Origin: Tubulanus polymorphus
Lineage: Eukaryota > Nemertea > Palaeonemertea > Tubulaniformes > Tubulanidae
DNA: 64,000 nt
Assembly: GCF_964204645.1 (NCBI RefSeq)
Contig: NC_134033.1
Location: forward strand, 12,342,155 to 12,406,154
Direction: 5' to 3'
The notes beneath the pieces are model-generated. The model had not been told where the DNA came from and did no database searches. It worked only from the letters and a program-made list of their open reading frames with translations. Position 1 is the first letter of the stretch. Every line of letters starts with the position of its first letter. The translations under genes and the position numbers were made by a program. Of this stretch, positions 5,173 through 23,943 are shown in pieces.

Positions 5173-6420
5173 ATGACACGTCAAAAAGTTGTGATAATCC
5201 TTGTTTTGCTGATCTGGCAAAATCAGACCGATGCTTCGGTTTACCAGCAGGGCGAGTCGTCCGCACAACCGCCTGTAGTTACTGTCGTCAGTTCGTCTTC
5301 TTGCAACAACACATGGCACGTCATCGATTCTACGTCTGGTTACATCGTTTCACCGAACTATCCGTCTCTAACGCGTGGCGTTGTATGCCGTTGGTTCGTC
5401 AACAGCTCTTTACCGGGTACGTTTCACGTCCAAGTTTACATCGACATCGAGCCGTCGATATACTGTAGAGATAACTTCCTTCGCGTCGGCGATTCTGATA
5501 ACGTACTGTGCGGCGATAGAAAACTAGATATTTACCGCAGTAATTCGTTCTCGCCGATGTTTAAGTGTGACACGAACGTCGCTCGGGGATGTCGAGTTTA
5601 TGTAATCTATCGTTTCGAGGAAAAACGCAGTCGTTTGAAAACTGTCCACGACTGTAGTTCATGGAATCTTAGACGATTGACAACGCAGCAAACCGGTTAC
5701 AAAGTTGCGATTAGAATGAACGCACGTTGTCATCGCTTGCGCTTTGAATGGCTCGGTCTATCAAGCGGCTTCGGTTTGAATTTAACTTTTGAAAATTTCG
5801 ATTTCAAATTAAACCCGAGTTCAGATTTCGCGTCTATTCAAATTTACGACGGATCGAACTCAAGTGAACCTATAATCGGCATGCGGGAACAAACGGGACA
5901 TCCGCCATTCTGTGTTTACACGAAAACTAACAAAGCTGTCGTCACTTTATTGTTGTCAGATAAAAAACAAACAATCAGTGTAATAACTAATCTCTCCATA
6001 CACATTCATAAACTTTCAGATTGGAACATTTCTAATCCATCGATTCCGATCTTTTATAACAAATCCGGAGTGCTCGTTCCCGGTGATAGGCCGTACGTAA
6101 TAACTCAGTCTAAACACTTGTACTGTTGGTCCATCAGAGCTGAAATACTGCAGTACGTCGTCTTCAACTGGACACGTGATGTCATCGCATCCGGTGACGT
6201 CATCGGCGTATTCAAACTCGAAGGTTCGTTGATCGTCGGAACAGATATCCTACTCGGCGAAAACTATCTGAAATCGTTAAGTGTGAAATCGGATGGATTT
6301 TTAGTGACGTTGTGTTTACTATCATCGGAGAATTCGGTCGTTTCTTCGCTGTGGAATTTAACGATCGGCTACAAAATAGAATCGTTGAACATCACAGAAG
6401 TCGAGGTGGAAAATCGAAAA
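5173..6420 (+). CDS. Exon 1 of CUB/C-type lectin/LDLa/LRR GPCR: signal peptide and three CUB-type domains
   Basis: Codes for residues 1-416 of a multidomain receptor. I chose the ATG at 5173 because it is followed at once by a signal peptide (MTRQKVVIILVLLIW...) and the open frame further upstream has no ATG. CUB domain 1 runs from about residue 44 to 150 (Cys, then SPNYPSL, two Cys pairs). CUB 2 covers about 161-275 and includes the IYDGS motif. A divergent CUB-like third domain lies at about 290-405. Many N-x-S/T sequons indicate a glycosylated extracellular region. The frame runs past the exon, but AAAA/GTGAGT at 6420/6421 is a near-perfect donor and the CUB fold resumes at 7988 in the same phase. 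CUB domains bind proteins or sugars, often in a Ca-dependent way; the ligand is unknown. Confidence 0.85.
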
Positions 6421-7987
6421 GTGAGTATCAGCATTATTTGTCAAACGTACATTGATTGTCACTAGAAACGAGAAATCAAAATAAATGTCTCTTGCTCACC
6501 GGGTAATAGGTAGAAATTCCCCCGGTACAAATCCCACACGTAGGAATTCGCTAGATAAAATGCCCAGGGGCCGGTTCCACAGTCGGGACTTAAGTCCAAA
6601 AGTGGTCTTAAATCTTAAGACTGGTCTTAAGCTGTTAGATTAGCTATATGACTAAAATAGTCTGAGACTAGTCTTAAGTCTAAGCCATGACTATGGAACC
6701 GGCCCCAGATCAGTTGTCCATCGGTGTTAGAATTTTTCTAATTTTCAATGTTTGATAATCTTAAGTGGCTTCATTAATTTTGAGCGCTATCACCCCAAAT
6801 AAGTCCATTTTTACATCAGTAAGTGTCCTTAAGATCGACATTTATTTATTAAGATCGTTTACGTAAAAATCGTTCATTTTCAAATTACCACCCTTTATTA
6901 GCAAGCAGTTTAATTCCACTACTACTCCGGATTGAGTTGAAATGATCAATTCCAATCAACAATTTGTGTCTCCGAATCAATGTCCCTAAAGTAATTATCA
7001 CCGATTGTGCTATTGGGTGAGAAATTTTGCAGAATTATTATTTGCCATATTATTGAATGCAGGTGAGATTTAGGGAAAACTCCCTAAATCTAGATCATTT
7101 CTGAGCAAGAAATTTCTCCAATTCTGTCATTACTATGATTTTCGGTACTTTTTTCTGCCTTTGCGCTAGTATGAAATTCAAGAATAAATGAAATTTAACT
7201 TCATGTAATATCTTTAGAATTCAAGCTGTAATATATTTGAACTCTGCGATAACTTTAATCACTAATGAACTTTCAATTTGTTGTACCTAACTTTTACGCT
7301 CAAGATATTCACATGTGATATCGCGCAGTTTCGTTCAGAAATCTACTCAGTATTGTTCTCCCATACACCCGATATAGTTATAGTCATTTGAGATATGTGA
7401 CGATGATCCAGAGAGAGTCCGAAACATGTCTTTTAGTTTCAATTCACGAGTAATGCATTTCGCATGTAATCATTTGAATTTCGTACATGCGGGTTCTAGT
7501 ATAAGGATCATCCTCGCTTGCCAGGGGTCCGGTATCACTCCCGAACTCTCTTCCACCAGCCCTTGGCCTCACGACGCGTGATTTCATTACTGGCGCCTTT
7601 TGCGCATGACGTCATATATCAACTTGCGAAATACTTCCTTTTTCGGTAAAACGTTCGCTAATTGGTCCATTTAACGGGAAATTCAACACGAGCCTAATGT
7701 TGTTAGTTACAAGCGCTGTGATAGGACCTGATTCTGATCGGCTAGTAACGACTCCAACTACTCGTGAGATCAAGGGGTTTGGGAACGGCTTTAGCTTGGC
7801 GAGTTAGAATCCCTTGACGAGTGAAGATGTATCGAGATATGAATCAAGTTAACATATTAATATGAATGAATAGTATCTATTTGCATTCCGTTTAAAAAGG
7901 TGGAGGATTTTAACCCGCTTTAAAGAATTGGTTTTTACCGCTAACCGCCAGATTTACACGCTCAGTATTTTCTACTTCTCATTGTAG
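6421..7987 (+). other. Intron 1 of receptor gene (phase 0)
   Basis: Starts GTGAGT and ends after a pyrimidine-rich tract at TTCTCATTGTAG. It contains a 140-bp palindromic MITE at 6567-6706. The CUB domain that begins exon 2 lacks the usual first Cys-Gly segment, so a short unrecognised exon inside this intron is possible. Confidence 0.8.
6567..6706. mobile_element. Family I palindromic MITE (copy A, inside intron 1)
   Basis: Termini GGGGCCGGTTCCA and TGGAACCGGCCCC are inverted repeats. The interior is rich in CTTAAG and TTAAGAC blocks that also pair across the element. Full length is 140 bp, identical to the copy at 22835-22974. No ORF. Confidence 0.85.
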
Positions 7988-9310
7988 TTAACTCCACGAT
8001 ATCCGAGCCTGATGCCTCGTGACCTACTTCCCCGACACCCGAAACCGACTTTAACTTATCGTATCAACAAAGTGATATTCAACTGGAAAGTCGACATCTA
8101 TGACGAATACCTTACATTATCAGTTTCATCAGAGAATTGTGAACGAGCCGGATTTTACATATACGATGGGGGTAATTTTACGGCTAGACGTCATGGTCCG
8201 TATTGTCCCAGTCTGCACAACTTTGGTCGATCTGTCGGTAGTTTGATTACATCAGGTGGACCAGTTATCGTTGTAGTATACGCTTACAACTGGAATGGTG
8301 AGTTATTAAGGGCCGTCAGGGCGAAAAGTGGCCTCTACTTTCCTCGAACTGACTGTGACGGATACATTTTACGAAGGGGTGAAAGCCAGATCAATATTAC
8401 GTCACACTGTCTGGTGATTACACCCGAAAATCGACGCCTTCCGATAGAGAGCATATTCGTGTTATCAAAACACGAATATCAAGTAGACAGGTGTTTTCGT
8501 GTTACGGATCGTTGTGTAATCGTCAGTCTCACTAGTCGATCATTGATCGATAACAGTCTCATATTGCTCAATATGAAATTTGACAAAGTATATAGATTCT
8601 GGGGGTCAGCACTAATAGTTGTGTTACGTCGTAAATGCCAGGCATTGAAAGCACGGCGCCCTGTTGCGAATATCATATTTCGCCGCAAAATAGACAAATG
8701 TGGATTGGTGCAGTCACCCGACTATCCCGGACCAGCAAGAGATTTTTCAAAAATCCCAATCATCTACGCATTTTTTAATCCAACTTATGCCCATTTCTAC
8801 ATCAGATTCCTGTTCAAATTCATCGGGCCGACAACATGTAGCGCGTCTAATAATTACCGTATAGGGGAACGTATTCTACTAGCACAGTTAATAAACGCGG
8901 CAGATTCTAGGGCTCGCCATGAAACTGAAATATGTGAAACCAATGCTGTACCCGGACTGGTTTTGTACAGTTTACTCGGGCACGACCTGCACCTAGAGGT
9001 GAAAAACTACGTACCAATATTTCAAATTCGATACACTTTAGAGCAATCGCCTGTACTGACGTATCAACGACATAATACGTGTAGATCAGATTTTCTAGAT
9101 TCTGGAGTTTCGTGCGTTAGATTCGTCAAACACGAACGTCTGAATTGGGAGGACGCTGAAATTTACTGTCAACAGAAATACGGAGGACATCTTCTCAGTA
9201 TCAACTCACAACAGGAAATGATGGCTGTTAAAACGTTGTTTGCTACTACACTGCTTTTGAAGGCTTATTCACAGACGGCGCTTATTGCGATGATCGGATT
9301 GAAATGGCAG
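7988..9310 (+). CDS. Exon 2 of CUB/C-type lectin/LDLa/LRR GPCR: CUB domains and first half of a C-type lectin domain
   Basis: Codes for residues 417-857. It opens in phase 0 with LTPRYPSL, the strand typical of a CUB start, which supports the 7987/7988 acceptor even though the first ATG is at 8012. A CUB domain covers about 417-527 (IYDGG motif near 474). A more divergent Cys-bounded CUB-like unit lies at about 539-633, and another (CGLVQSPDYPG) at 654-768. From Cys781 a C-type lectin-like domain begins (Cys792, WEDAEIYC with Cys810, GGHLLSI) and is cut by the intron just after the IGLKWQ segment. The exon ends at GGCAG/GTAAAT. Taking the donor five codons or so later would disturb the lectin fold. 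Confidence 0.85.
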
Positions 9311-10080
9311 GTAAATGGCAGGTTTATCATACACTATTTGAAAATCAACGACTGAGTTCAAAATCTTGATCACAATATTTTTCAACTTAATCGAACGTTT
9401 GCAAAAACCAATATTTCAAGCTTTACCACCTCTTTAAATCATGTGTATGGATGCATTCTTTCAATGTGTTGCCAGTGATTTATAGATTTTCTGATAAAGG
9501 CAAGTTTTATGCTAATAAACGAAATTTCATCAATTCAATTCAATCCAATATATTGTGACAAAATGGTTAACGCATTTTGAGGTGGTACTTAGCGCGGCGA
9601 AATTGCCGACCCGTCGTTTGAATCGATTCAATCAACCCCAAATTAACAAAATTTTGACAAAATTATTTAATCGATATTCAATCAAGATTGATCTATTTCT
9701 AATCGTATGCAGTCTGATTACTCTAAGGTTATATGAAGCTATTATCAGTTTTCGAAACATCAAGTATCACAAGAATCAATTGATTAAAATAGATGAAAGG
9801 CTATGGAAGCGTCCTGGGGGATGTAATCATTTTTTCAAATCTTAGGCCGATTGAAAAATCATGAGATTAACCAAAATTTCGATTTTTCATCAAATTGTTT
9901 ATTTTACCCGGTGGTGATTTAATTCCGACTCTTTATCACGGAATTAAATAAATTTCATTAAGTTTTATTTCTTTTCAATCGGTAGGAAATGAAAAAAAAT
10001 AAAAAAATAAAATGTCCCATGGACGCTTCCGCAAAAAGTTGTTTATGTTGTACAGTATATTTTTTCCTTATATTCAACAG
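9311..10080 (+). other. Intron 2 of receptor gene (phase 0)
   Basis: Begins GTAAAT and ends TTCCTTATATTCAACAG. It interrupts the first lectin domain between IGLKWQ and PNGYVW. The 23 codons that stay open upstream of the acceptor (10012-10080) look intronic and should not be annotated as an N-terminus. No repeat family was recognised inside. Confidence 0.85.
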
Positions 10081-13000
10081 CCTAATGGCTACGTGTGGAT
10101 TGATGGAAAACCATTGAGCTACACAGAATGGTATGAACCAACTCTGAACGAGACCTTACCGGAAGTTATTCGCAGCTTGATATCTCCGACAAGAAAGCAA
10201 CCGATAAATGACGTCAACATGCCGTGTTCGGCGATGGTACTAAATAACCCGCGCAGTTCTGCGAACTGGGTTCGTTTTCCGTGTCAAGTAACACACGCGC
10301 ACACGACTTTCATTTGTGAAATTGAAAGTATACAAAGTAACGAAAACTCGACCATGAAAAATGTAAGTGTGAACAATGCGACTCATATCTCACAAAGTAC
10401 AACGTATGATATTGTTAATTCATCGTGTATCAAGGGATGGGTACGCATCTCAGGACGTTGCTATCAGTTACGCACGGCTTGGACGTCCAGGATCGACCAA
10501 GGATTGGATTTACAAGCTGCTAGATATACCTGCCACACAATTGGAGGTGTCTTAGGCTTAGTAACTCCTACTATGGATGTGCAGTATCTGATTGAAACTT
10601 TCCACTTTCAGCACCAATACGGTGCCATATTGGCAAATGATAGCAGTGCTGGATTTTTGGCAATAAAACCAGTTGTAACTAGGGATGACATCACTTTTAT
10701 TGAAACAGTGAAATGGTCGGTGAATGAGTTCGATAATATTACAGATGTAACGCATTCCGTGTTATGTTCCTACAATGGGACTGTTGATGAATTATCAGCT
10801 GTAAGTGGCTGTAAATCCTGGCAATTTGAATGCTACGATACCAGATGTATCAGCGACCATCGCGTTTGTGATACTAGAGAGGACTGTCAACACGGAGAAG
10901 ATGAACTCGATTGCTCAAGTTCTGACTTACGGAGCCAGTACCAGTGCACAGATGGGCAAGTAATATCAGTTAGTAATTTGTGTGATTTTGTACGAGATTG
11001 CGCTGACGGATCAGATGAGAACTCATGCTATCATACTTCATGTTCATCCGAACAGTATAGGTGTAGCAATGGACAATGTGTGGGTAAATATAAACGATGT
11101 GATGGACTGGTAGATTGTAAAGATAAATCCGATGAGATCGGCTGCACTCCGGACAAATGTAACGGGTTCGTGTGTGTAAATGGCGAATGTATCAGTTCTA
11201 TACTTTATCAGGATGGTGTTGTAGATTGTGGTGGTAGCCTCGAAGAGGATGAGATAGTGACCAATATAACTGTTAACCCAGCTATTCATTGCACAGATGA
11301 TAACTGTACAGCCAATTTCACTGCACTTTGCAAGGAATCGGATGAACAAAGATGTTCGTTCAAATCTCCGCATTGTTATTCGAGGCGAAATAGGTGCATT
11401 TTAGAACGAATGCCAACAGGTTTTCCCGTTTGTAGAATGCTCGAGCATATACTGGATTGTGATGAATTTGAATGTCCGGCTGGTACAGTGAAATGTCCAT
11501 TATCTTACTGTATACCGATTAGACAAGTGTGCGATGGTCAATCAGATTGTCCTCATTCAGAAGATGAACTCAATTGTGAAACGTTTTCATGTCCAGGAAT
11601 GTTTAAATGCGGAGACGAGAATCGATGTATTCCACAGCTGGAAGTTTGTGACGGTGTCGTTAATTGTATTCATAACTCGGATGACGAGGCTTACTGTGAC
11701 GTCACGTGTCCGGTAAACTGTCAATGTCAAGGTCATTTTATCAACTGCGACAACAGCAATATATCAGATATATCTGGCATGTTTTCGTCGTCAACTCGAG
11801 TTTTGATTTTGTCTAATAATCGCATTCTATTCAACGCATTGGCATTTTCCTATTTTTTCCTACTTCGAATACTCGATCTTTCTCGTAATGATTTATTTGC
11901 TATTTTGCCGAACGCATTTTCTAATCTGCACAATCTGAATTCATTAGATCTGTCCTATAATCGCCTATTATCACTGCCTGCTAATACATTCACCGGTTTG
12001 AGGAGTTTAGTTGAACTCGTCCTTACTGGAAATCCAATACGATACTTGGTCGATGGCAGCTTCAATGGTTTGACTTCACTTACGGTTCTCAATCTTCACG
12101 GTCTCTCTATATCGGTTCTTGGTCGTAACATATTCCGAGGTTTACCTGCGCTGAGATCAATGAATATTAGCGGTAACACGATCAATTCAATATCCAGATA
12201 CGCATTTTCTGGGCTTTATTCACTGGGAAGTCTCGATTTTACGCACAACTCTCGGATAATTTCCGTAAATGCCAACATCCTCCATGATCTGACATCGTTA
12301 TATTTTCTCGCTTCGGATGCGTATAAATTCTGTTGTATGGCACCGAATATTGACCGGTGTCTCCCGGTTGCTGATCAATTCTCATCGTGTTCAGACCTCA
12401 TGGACAACACCGTCCTCAGAGCTGTAATCTGGGTTATTGCGTTTTTCAGTTTTTTCGCGAACAGCATCGTCATTGTTATCCGAATTCAAGCAAGCCAAAA
12501 CGCATCGGGCAGAGTCCACACATCTCCGTCCGACATTCTCATCATAAATTTGGCGGTTTCAGATTTTCTGATGGCAATCTATTTGTTTTTGATAGCTGGG
12601 GCCGACGATCTTTATAAAGGTGTTTATTTCTTGAATTCGGAAACGTGGACGCGTAGTTCATTATGTAGTCTAGCCGGGGTTGCGGCGACAATATCGTGCG
12701 AAGGTTCTTTGACATTTCTTTTTCTTCTCACACGTTTCAGATATTCAAAGATTGTTAATCCGTTTTCTGGTAATCCGCTTTTATCCTCGAACTATGTATC
12801 CGTTTTCTGCGTTATGTGCTGGCTACTTCTGTGTCTATTTGCTATCATACCACTATTCAATTTGTCATATTTCGGTGATTATTTCTACGGTTCCACAGGT
12901 GTTTGTCTGCCTATGAACTTAATCTCTATAAATGTCAGTGGCTGGCATTATTCGTTCGCATTATTTGCGGTCTTGAACGCTATCCTCCTTACTGTGATAA

Positions 13001-13314
13001 TGACAACGTACGCGCAGATGTACAAACTTGTATCTGGAAGCAGGTCTGGTTCGGGTAGAGCCGATCCTACAGAACTCGTTCTAGCTCGACGCAGTCTCGT
13101 GATAATTCTTTGCAATTTGTTTTGCTGGCTACCGTTAATAATCGTCCAGTTCTGCGCCGTATTTTCGGTCGAAATACCGAACCAGGTTGCCGCGTGGTTG
13201 GCCGTTCTCTTTTTACCGATTAACTCAACTCTGAACCCTCTTCTTTACACCATTCTATCAATCGATATGAAAACGGTCAGAGCGCGAAATAGAAAAAGAC
13301 ACGTGAGAAGATAA
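10081..13314 (+). CDS. Exon 3 of CUB/C-type lectin/LDLa/LRR GPCR: lectin domains, LDLa array, LRRs and 7TM (GRL101/relaxin-receptor-like)
   Basis: Codes for residues 858-1934 and the stop codon in one 3.2-kb exon. In order: end of lectin domain 1 (WIDGKPLSYTEW ... FICEIE); a divergent second C-type lectin-like domain (about 973-1088); LDLa repeats at about 1101-1135, 1146-1173, 1178-1212, a degenerate one near 1217, then 1322-1356 and 1361-1396, with the acidic CxxxSDE Ca-cage motif in most; LRR N-cap (about 1400-1413) and seven LRRs (about 1430-1600); a Cys-Cys hinge near 1608. The seven helices follow: LAVSDF in TM2, CWLP in TM6 and NPLLY in TM7, with the TM3 / loop-2 cysteines present. The last helix is followed by a short basic tail. 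The closest known layout is the Lymnaea GRL101 / RXFP (type C LGR) group, which signals through G proteins at the plasma membrane. Oddity: the E/DRY position reads FRY (1743-1745). Ligand and physiological role are unknown. Confidence 0.92.
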   Translation, partial: PNGYVWIDGKPLSYTEWYEPTLNETLPEVIRSLISPTRKQPINDVNMPCSAMVLNNPRSSANWVRFPCQVTHAHTTFICEIESIQSNENSTMKNVSVNNATHISQSTTYDIVNSSCIKGWVRISGRCYQLRTAWTSRIDQGLDLQAARYTCHTIGGVLGLVTPTMDVQYLIETFHFQHQYGAILANDSSAGFLAIKPVVTRDDITFIETVKWSVNEFDNITDVTHSVLCSYNGTVDELSAVSGCKSWQFECYDTRCISDHRVCDTREDCQHGEDELDCSSSDLRSQYQCTDGQVISVSNLCDFVRDCADGSDENSCYHTSCSSEQYRCSNGQCVGKYKRCDGLVDCKDKSDEIGCTPDKCNGFVCVNGECISSILYQDGVVDCGGSLEEDEIVTNITVNPAIHCTDDNCTANFTALCKESDEQRCSFKSPHCYSRRNRCILERMPTGFPVCRMLEHILDCDEFECPAGTVKCPLSYCIPIRQVCDGQSDCPHSEDELNCETFSCPGMFKCGDENRCIPQLEVCDGVVNCIHNSDDEAYCDVTCPVNCQCQGHFINCDNSNISDISGMFSSSTRVLILSNNRILFNALAFSYFFLLRILDLSRNDLFAILPNAFSNLHNLNSLDLSYNRLLSLPANTFTGLRSLVELVLTGNPIRYLVDGSFNGLTSLTVLNLHGLSISVLGRNIFRGLPALRSMNISGNTINSISRYAFSGLYSLGSLDFTHNSRIISVNANILHDLTSLYFLASDAYKFCCMAPNIDRCLPVADQFSSCSDLMDNTVLRAVIWVIAFFSFFANSIVIVIRIQASQNASGRVHTSPSDILIINLAVSDFLMAIYLFLIAGADDLYKGVYFLNSETWTRSSLCSLAGVAATISCEGSLTFLFLLTRFRYSKIVNPFSGNPLLSSNYVSVFCVMCWLLLCLFAIIPLFNLSYFGDYFYGSTGVCLPMNLISINVSGWHYSFALFAVLNAILLTVIMTTYAQMYKLVSGSRSGSGRADPTELVLARRSLVIILCNLFCWLPLIIVQFCAVFSVEIPNQVAAWLAVLFLPINSTLNPLLYTILSIDMKTVRARNRKRHVRR

Positions 13315-23851: not shown

Positions 23852-23943
23852 GCCCTCGGACTGGATTTGAACCAGCGACCTAAGGAATTCAGCTATGGGG
23901 ATGCCACTACAGTCCTCCGCTCTACCAACTGAGCTACCGAGGG
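23852..23943 (-). tRNA. tRNA-Tyr (anticodon GTA) with 19-nt intron
   Basis: Read on the minus strand, the gene has a 7-bp acceptor stem (CCCTCGG / CCGAGGG), D arm TAGCTCAGTTGGTAGAGC (box A), an anticodon stem GAGGA/TCCTT with CTGTAG giving anticodon GTA, and T arm GCTGGTTCAAATCCAGT (box B). A 19-base intron (23888-23906) follows the base 3' of the anticodon, the canonical site and a usual property of eukaryotic tRNA-Tyr. Without the intron it is 73 bases including the discriminator, which reads C instead of the common A. It is transcribed by RNA polymerase III and needs splicing by the tRNA endonuclease. No neighbour tRNA gene was seen. Confidence 0.93.

Follow-up and report, generated by a model that had tools for sequence, protein, structure and literature searches.

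What kind of receptor is encoded by a long gene on the forward strand of contig NC_134033.1 of the palaeonemertean ribbon worm Tubulanus polymorphus, and is that gene alone of its kind? The gene lies in a stretch of 64,000 nucleotides (positions 12,342,155 to 12,406,154), henceforth referred to as the window, and consists of three exons that are joined in frame to give 1934 residues. A leader is followed by a CUB region, a C-type lectin domain split by intron 2, LDLa modules, leucine-rich repeats (LRRs) and a seven-transmembrane (7TM) core. Judged by sequence, the predicted receptor is real and carries the CUB region, the C-type-lectin fold, LDLa, LRR and 7TM in a single chain. It appears from motif counts to be one of approximately 300 similar genes in the genome, a number that is an estimate. 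The reading preferred here, at a probability of roughly 0.6, is that this ~300-copy family, with its conserved core and its variable, partly exchanged outer domains, serves as a recognition repertoire.

The family was counted in an assembly of 267.8 Mb and 77 contigs, with the window located on contig C9; flow cytometry has indicated a genome of 313–358 Mb for this species (PMC8468679). Degenerate 27-mers derived from aligned members were counted genome-wide with at most two mismatches. The D3 motif of exon 1 was found 304 times, the LDLa motif 305 times and the 7TM motif 322 times, while each reversed control gave 0. Linkage was assessed using the first 100 places listed per motif, all exact matches, and 97 LDLa places were compared. 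The initial annotation had proposed that the exons belong together, and this is supported by the presence, in 78 of the 97 places, of a same-strand exon-1 motif 2.6–5.5 kb upstream of LDLa. A 7TM motif was present ~2.3 kb downstream in 72, both motifs in 57 and at least one in 93. As a control, exon-1 motifs within 8 kb on the opposite side of the LDLa motif were counted; 31 of the 97 places had one because the arrays are dense. Among the places listed, neighbors share a strand in 65 of 69 cases with a median spacing of 11.1 kb, and the listed copies lie mostly in same-strand tandem arrays ~11 kb apart. The window copy is the sole family copy within its 64 kb. On contig C6, receptor motifs at ~19.82–19.86 Mb recur at 20.05–20.09 Mb with a constant offset of ~232,300 bp, which reflects either a segment duplicated recently or an artifact of the assembly.

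Twenty loci, chosen by long open frames, were fetched for comparison. At 19 of them exons 1, 2 and 3 keep their order and strand, the exception being L018 (C7:17890370-17900270). Of these 19, 17 were assembled, each as an intact open frame of 1881–1951 residues; L011 and L015, whose matches shift from one frame to another, were excluded. Introns are phase 0 in 18 assembled models, and four of four array neighbors fetched separately had all exons open. L018 is a divergent relative (30%) in which part of a lectin domain, LDLa, LRR and 7TM share one 1046-residue frame, an upstream 766-residue frame ends by eye in a lectin-like start, and DRV and a QPD are kept. It may be a sister receptor of greater age whose lectin domain is interrupted by an intron at a comparable position.

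Conservation is distributed unevenly along the chain (domains as defined in Table 1). Mean pairwise identity among 18 copies was 74% for CUB1, 51% for CUB2, 70% for D3, 55% for D4, 47% for D5, 39% for D6, 76% for the first C-type lectin domain (CTL1), 28% for the linker, 54% for CTL2, 77% for LDLa, 64% for LRR and 78% for 7TM. CUB1, D3, CTL1, LDLa and 7TM are conserved among the copies, and CUB2, D4, D5, D6 and CTL2 vary. Ratios of nonsynonymous to synonymous substitution (dN/dS), determined by NG86 in seven close copies, were 0.17 for 7TM, 0.22 for LDLa, 0.33 for D5, 0.35 for D3, 0.36 for CTL1, 0.43 for both CTL2 and LRR, 0.49 for CUB1, 0.50 for CUB2, 0.70 for D6 and 0.71 for D4. The codon omega from IQ-TREE for the same seven copies was 0.657 for CUB1, 0.714 for D4 and 0.196 for 7TM.

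Exchange of segments between copies was assessed by two comparisons. In five tandem copies, the nearest relative switches along the gene in 18 of 30 overlapping triplets after Bonferroni correction, and 9 of the 14 listed breakpoints fall at residues 752–860, which cover the D6-CTL1 border and the exon 2/exon 3 junction at 857. No triplet of the 60 in a second, "wide" set passed Bonferroni correction because the permutation floor of 0.001 is too coarse, with at least 14 triplets lying at that floor. Fourfold-site differences among 15 copies, a rough comparison because only codons alike at their first two bases were compared, were lowest in CUB1 (0.31), D3 (0.33), CTL1 (0.36) and D4 (0.36), followed by LDLa (0.39), D5 (0.42), 7TM (0.45), CTL2 (0.46) and LRR (0.47), and highest in D6 (0.51) and CUB2 (0.57). 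This pattern fits an exchange that keeps some blocks alike, although D4 departs from it. Taken as sequence evidence, the results support the view that neighboring copies have probably exchanged segments, often near the border between the variable exon 2 and the signaling exon 3.

The features of the window gene are collected in Table 1. Coordinates, frame and length of 1934 residues are as given in the initial annotation, and each intron is phase 0 and bounded by GT and AG. Exon 1 ends in AAAA before a GTGAGT donor, and a search for donor-like motifs located GTRAGT near the aligned end in 19 of 20 models. The exon 2 donor (CAG before GTAAAT) occupies a position kept in the paralogs. In L016 the intron 2 donor is CAG before GCAAGT, with GC instead of GT. 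L031 (C6:20889040-20895740) and L032 (C6:20899020-20905720) have AC, not AG, at the expected exon-3 acceptor, where splicing may be absent or may use another site. A hexamer model trained on 21 paralogs, with the window gene left out, gave coding scores of 361 for the exon 3 frame, 125 for exon 1 and 57 for exon 2; the next of 583 open reading frames scored 22. No strong coding signal was detected in the rest of the window using this model, which was trained on the receptor family alone and used with no Pfam scan of the other frames; the model favors the family it was trained on, so the window may contain other genes. A further exon past 13314 was rejected because all 22 models end in a stop at about the same place. 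The window also contains a tRNA gene (23852-23943, minus strand, 58.3 bits) with the ARAGORN anticodon gtag and no named type, perhaps an intron-bearing tRNA-Tyr. Elsewhere in the assembly, at C7:100264-102924, Hsp70-like matches include some with internal stops, reflecting introns or a decayed copy. An intronless Hsp70 on contig C5 has a match, P0132, from Tubulanus polymorphus with 94% identity over 90%, and no COX1 was detected in the assembly.

Table 1 Features of the receptor gene, in window coordinates.
Feature	Position	Strand	Description
Exon 1	5173..6420	+	416 aa: Met, signal-peptide-like leader (by eye), CUB1, CUB2-like, D3
CUB1	5302..5652	+	Residues 44-160; Pfam PF00431; hhalign 95.8%
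CUB2-like, variable	5653..6027	+	Residues 161-285; Pfam CUB stretch under cut-off when alone
D3, conserved	6028..6420	+	Residues 286-416; no named family; source of exon-1 counting motif
Intron 1	6421..7987	+	1567 nt, phase 0
Exon 2	7988..9310	+	441 aa: D4, D5, D6 and beginning of CTL1; no separate leader seen
D4, D5, D6, variable block	7988..9064	+	Residues 417-775; D6 starts with CUB-like CGLVQSPDYP
CTL1, first part	9065..9310	+	Residues 776-857; end of exon 2
Intron 2	9311..10080	+	770 nt, phase 0, within lectin domain
Exon 3	10081..13314	+	1077 aa and stop
CTL1, second part	10081..10317	+	Residues 858-936; QPI and WVR replace QPD and WND
CTL2	10426..10779	+	Residues 973-1090; lectin-like by cysteines only
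LDLa array	10780..11694	+	Residues 1091-1395; PF00057 E 1.8e-29
LRR region	11695..12321	+	Residues 1396-1604; PF13855 E 7.5e-24, 83.7 bits
Hinge and 7TM core	12322..13254	+	Residues 1605-1915; PF00001 E 1.6e-22
Short basic C-terminal tail and stop	13255..13314	+	Protein end 22-28 residues from N of NPxxY in 22/22 models

The outer region contains fewer recognizable CUB domains than the "at least four, probably six" proposed at the outset. Pfam CUB matched two stretches in exon 1 with 32.2 bits together, above the cut-off of 21.4, while the single stretches scored 18.5 and 19.3 bits (CUB2), both below it. By profile-profile comparison with hhalign, domain 1 matched CUB at the value listed in Table 1, and its family profile matched cubilin at E 2.8e-14. 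Domain 6 reached 68.1% over 17 columns only, and domains 2–5 were without CUB support (0.3–17.5%). Pfam CUB was absent from exon 2 at E ≤ 0.1 among 18 family members, and D3, D4 and D5 matched no named family. Six CUB domains were therefore rejected on the single-stretch Pfam scores, the profile-profile comparison and the exon 2 scan, and two Pfam stretches are detectable. Single-sequence structure predictions of exon 1 and exon 2 were of low confidence (mean predicted local distance difference test, pLDDT, of 34.9 and 35.0). A database search with residues 1–1120 gave no match at E ≤ 0.01 among 6767 candidates.

The first lectin domain does cross an intron in frame, as had been proposed. Exon 2 alone matched Lectin_C with 19.8 bits over profile positions 2–35 of 107, and joining exons 2 and 3 lifted the match to 34.0 bits over positions 2–106, so CTL1 spans intron 2. 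The proposal of two lectin domains held for CTL1 but not for CTL2, which gave no Lectin_C match at E ≤ 10; as a second lectin-like domain CTL2 is plausible only, from its cysteines. Calcium-dependent sugar-binding C-type lectins carry EPN/QPD and WND motifs. At the first of these places CTL1 has QPI in 21 of 22 models and QPN in one; at the second it has WVR in 21 and WFR in one, with WND or WHD in none. The motifs of a calcium-dependent sugar site are thus replaced in CTL1 of 22/22 models, which weakens the sugar recognition initially ascribed to the ectodomain. QPD or QPN occurs together with WHD in 7 of 14 relatives (P0004, P0011, P0015, P0016, P0017, P0019 and P0033). The remaining seven are without this combination, and loss of the site is therefore not limited to the Tubulanus family.

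In the C-terminal half, the LDLa, LRR and 7TM modules all exceed their Pfam cut-offs, 7tm_1 (PF00001) with 80.7 bits against 30.5. Pfam detects six stretches in the LDLa array at E ≤ 10, of which four remain at E ≤ 0.001; inspection by eye gives seven modules, including two that are degenerate. On contig C8 (8966311-8978424), LDLa exons form two series, with a 1509-bp period and later one of ~2165 bp, forming a unit of two exons repeated in tandem within a different LDLa gene. Against solved structures, the 7TM core matched RXFP1 best (157 bits, 7tmw), followed by LHCGR (94) and LGR4 (47). R3.50 and NPxxY are present in 22/22 models and D/E3.49 in 0/22, compared to D/E3.49 in 54 of the 57 other rows, among which are L018 and a number of nearly identical proteins. 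In class-A receptors basal activity often rises when D/E3.49 is lost, and the core may therefore be altered across the whole clade; from sequence, a change in basal activity would be the expected consequence. The CUB and lectin modules share one chain with a class-A 7TM core, in agreement with the initial description of a GRL101-like leucine-rich-repeat-containing G-protein-coupled receptor (LGR) with additional N-terminal recognition modules.

A tree of the 7TM part was constructed from 77 rows, including 18 Tubulanus full-type copies. The 18 copies form one clade (SH-like approximate likelihood ratio test, SH-aLRT, 100; stem 1.28) apart from the sampled relatives. Within the sampled family the first branch is the window copy (support 80). 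L018 lies outside the clade, grouped with Lingula. RXFP1 lies inside the set, a placement for which the program warns of a possible false joining of long branches, here the long stem and RXFP1. A database search with residues 1100–1934 returned 249 proteins at E ≤ 0.001, with identity of at most 38% in the best 120 of the 249. Named relatives near the top are mostly GRL101-like (Lingula, Haliotis cracherodii, Lineus and crustaceans) or uncharacterized (Haliotis rufescens and Asterias), with LDLR-type and other LRR proteins found further down. Among these best 120 matches a close Tubulanus receptor was absent, although the database includes Tubulanus polymorphus proteins, and the receptor family may be missing or fragmented in the annotation of this species. 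Type C2 (GRL101-type) LGRs are defined by several LDLa modules and type C1 (RXFP/LGR3-LGR4) by one LDLa, at most two (PMC8286064). The window receptor has a class-A 7TM core, an LRR block next to it and 4–6 LDLa stretches, a module content that fits type C2 and exceeds the LDLa range of type C1; the 7TM tree does not separate the two types.

To our knowledge, the animals examined to date have few LGRs. The presence of ~300 copies moves the balance from a single hormone receptor toward a recognition repertoire. In the proposed mechanism, the variable outer domains CUB2, D4–D6 and CTL2 would bind differing protein or glycoprotein ligands on prey, mate or microbial surfaces, the LDLa-LRR-hinge unit would relay binding to the 7TM core as in relaxin receptors, and each copy would report a different cue through G proteins. 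A stronger form, a germline repertoire of ~300 G-protein-coupled receptors (GPCRs) in which a fixed signaling half, made up of LDLa, LRR and a 7TM core that lacks D/E3.49, is joined to the variable blocks CUB2, D4–D6 and CTL2, with reshuffling among tandem copies near the exon 2/exon 3 border, is possible but doubtful. If true, it would represent a recombining recognition system that resembles other invertebrate immune or sensory repertoires in logic but is wired directly to G proteins. With its conserved core, the family is also a natural experiment on the binding and signaling parts of GRL101.

Several observations weigh against a recognition repertoire. CTL1, the best-recognized recognition module, is conserved (76%) and without sugar-site motifs. 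Domain-wide positive selection was looked for in the seven close copies and no domain had dN/dS >1. Values >1 were obtained for single pairs on few changes (1.21 in D6; 1.06 and 1.11 in CTL1) and in a few 20-codon windows, so relaxed constraint may instead underlie the variation, and D5 is variable yet has a dN/dS of only 0.33. The intact fraction is biased upward, since loci were picked by long open frames, and the count may be raised by recent segmental copies or by false duplicates because several C6 places repeat at the 232.3-kb offset. The solitary window copy could also have a job different from that of the family.

Within the recognition reading, the function of the family would be sensory or immune, and the family makes this question testable by expression mapping. 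A chemosensory repertoire of contact or odor receptors for prey and mates, in epidermis, head or proboscis, is a tentative proposal with a probability of about a third. Family size and tandem layout are like those of chemoreceptor families, although receptors with multi-domain ectodomains of 1900 residues are unusual in odor sensing. A starfish GRL101-like gene is expressed at higher levels in sensory tentacles than in tube feet (PMC6267866). An immune repertoire against microbes or parasites has a similar weight and is likewise possible without being probable. Its precedent is the SudRes2 schistosome-resistance region of Biomphalaria sudanica, which contains 12 GRL101-like genes, ten of them with CTL, LDL, LRR and 7TM (PMC12297450). 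The CUB and CTL modules and the signs of segment exchange are consistent with this proposal. Against it, a WND-type motif is found in 0/22 models, no clear positive selection was detected in the seven close copies, and the validated snail variant sits in a neighboring gene, not in a GRL101 gene (PMC12297450).

It is unlikely that the window gene is a conventional GRL101 hormone receptor whose LRRs bind an insulin- or insulin-like growth factor (IGF)-like peptide, with CUB and lectin modules as accessories. The RXFP1 match of the LRR and 7TM part, the solitary position of the window copy in its 64 kb and its place as first branch of the sampled family are in keeping with such a role. GRL101, still termed an orphan in the literature, has been proposed as an IGF receptor (PMC8286064). 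However, ~300 copies with variable outer domains would be unexpected for a hormone receptor, and the LRR region is less conserved (64%) than CTL1 or LDLa (76–77%). Passive amplification, in which a repeat was multiplied in tandem and few of the copies have much function, is less probable still. The spacing is often near 10 kb, larger blocks are repeated, and L011 and L015 look broken. Among 150 scored LDLa matches (of 2248 candidates), not all of them from the receptor family, 9 lie in frames of 400–999 residues and 58 in shorter ones; yet 83 lie in frames of at least 1000 residues, splice sites and stop position recur, and the 7TM core has a dN/dS of 0.17. A wrong gene model, with exon 1 or exon 2 taken from a separate gene, is very improbable: the introns are predicted from DNA alone and the exon 1 frame is readable past its donor to a stop at 6463-6465, but the consistent order, strand and phase in the paralogous loci (19/20; 18 models assembled) and the 304 exon-1 against 305 exon-3 motifs argue for one gene, as originally annotated.

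Comparison with known receptors separates the architecture of the family from its size. The same succession of modules, from CUB through C-type lectin, LDLa and LRR to 7TM, is present in Lineus P0011, Paralvinella P0020, Lytechinus P0033, Dimorphilus P0015 and Haliotis rufescens P0004, and the architecture is therefore not new in sequence databases. The GRL101-like protein of Lineus longissimus (P0011, 1495 aa) is from the same phylum; it differs in having one CUB, in its 36% identity over 78% of residues 1100–1934, in its QPD and WHD motifs and in keeping D3.49. The other four have D or E at 3.49, some add F5/8C, Kringle, Somatomedin B, EGF or ApeC domains, and those of Dimorphilus, Lytechinus and Haliotis have QPD and WHD. 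Searches of the open-access literature listed no description of a Tubulanus-type expansion (~300 copies, conserved core, variable and apparently exchanged blocks) or of CUB-bearing GRL101 receptors. The architecture is already known, and the size of the expansion looks new.

RXFP1 shares LRR, hinge and 7TM with the window receptor but has one LDLa, no CUB and no lectin. The rapidly expanded GPCR families of sea urchins, with hundreds of lineage-specific tandem genes, are like the Tubulanus family in number and tandem layout; they differ in the ectodomain, being ordinary 7TM receptors without such modules. The Biomphalaria SudRes2 cluster, the nearest description found in the literature, shares with Tubulanus the chain of C-type lectin, LDLa, LRR and 7TM and the clustering of paralogs; its genes are poorly covered by the reference annotation (PMC12297450), as may also be the case in Tubulanus. 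The same source calls the lectin domain unique to the snail GRL101 genes. GRL101-like proteins with a lectin domain were found here in Lingula, Lineus, Dimorphilus, Lytechinus, Paralvinella, Haliotis and Elysia, and the domain is therefore present in several phyla and wider than the Biomphalaria genes. SudRes2 comprises 12 genes, 10 of them full, with no mention of CUB in the text (PMC12297450), compared to ~300 copies with a CUB-containing exon 1 in Tubulanus.

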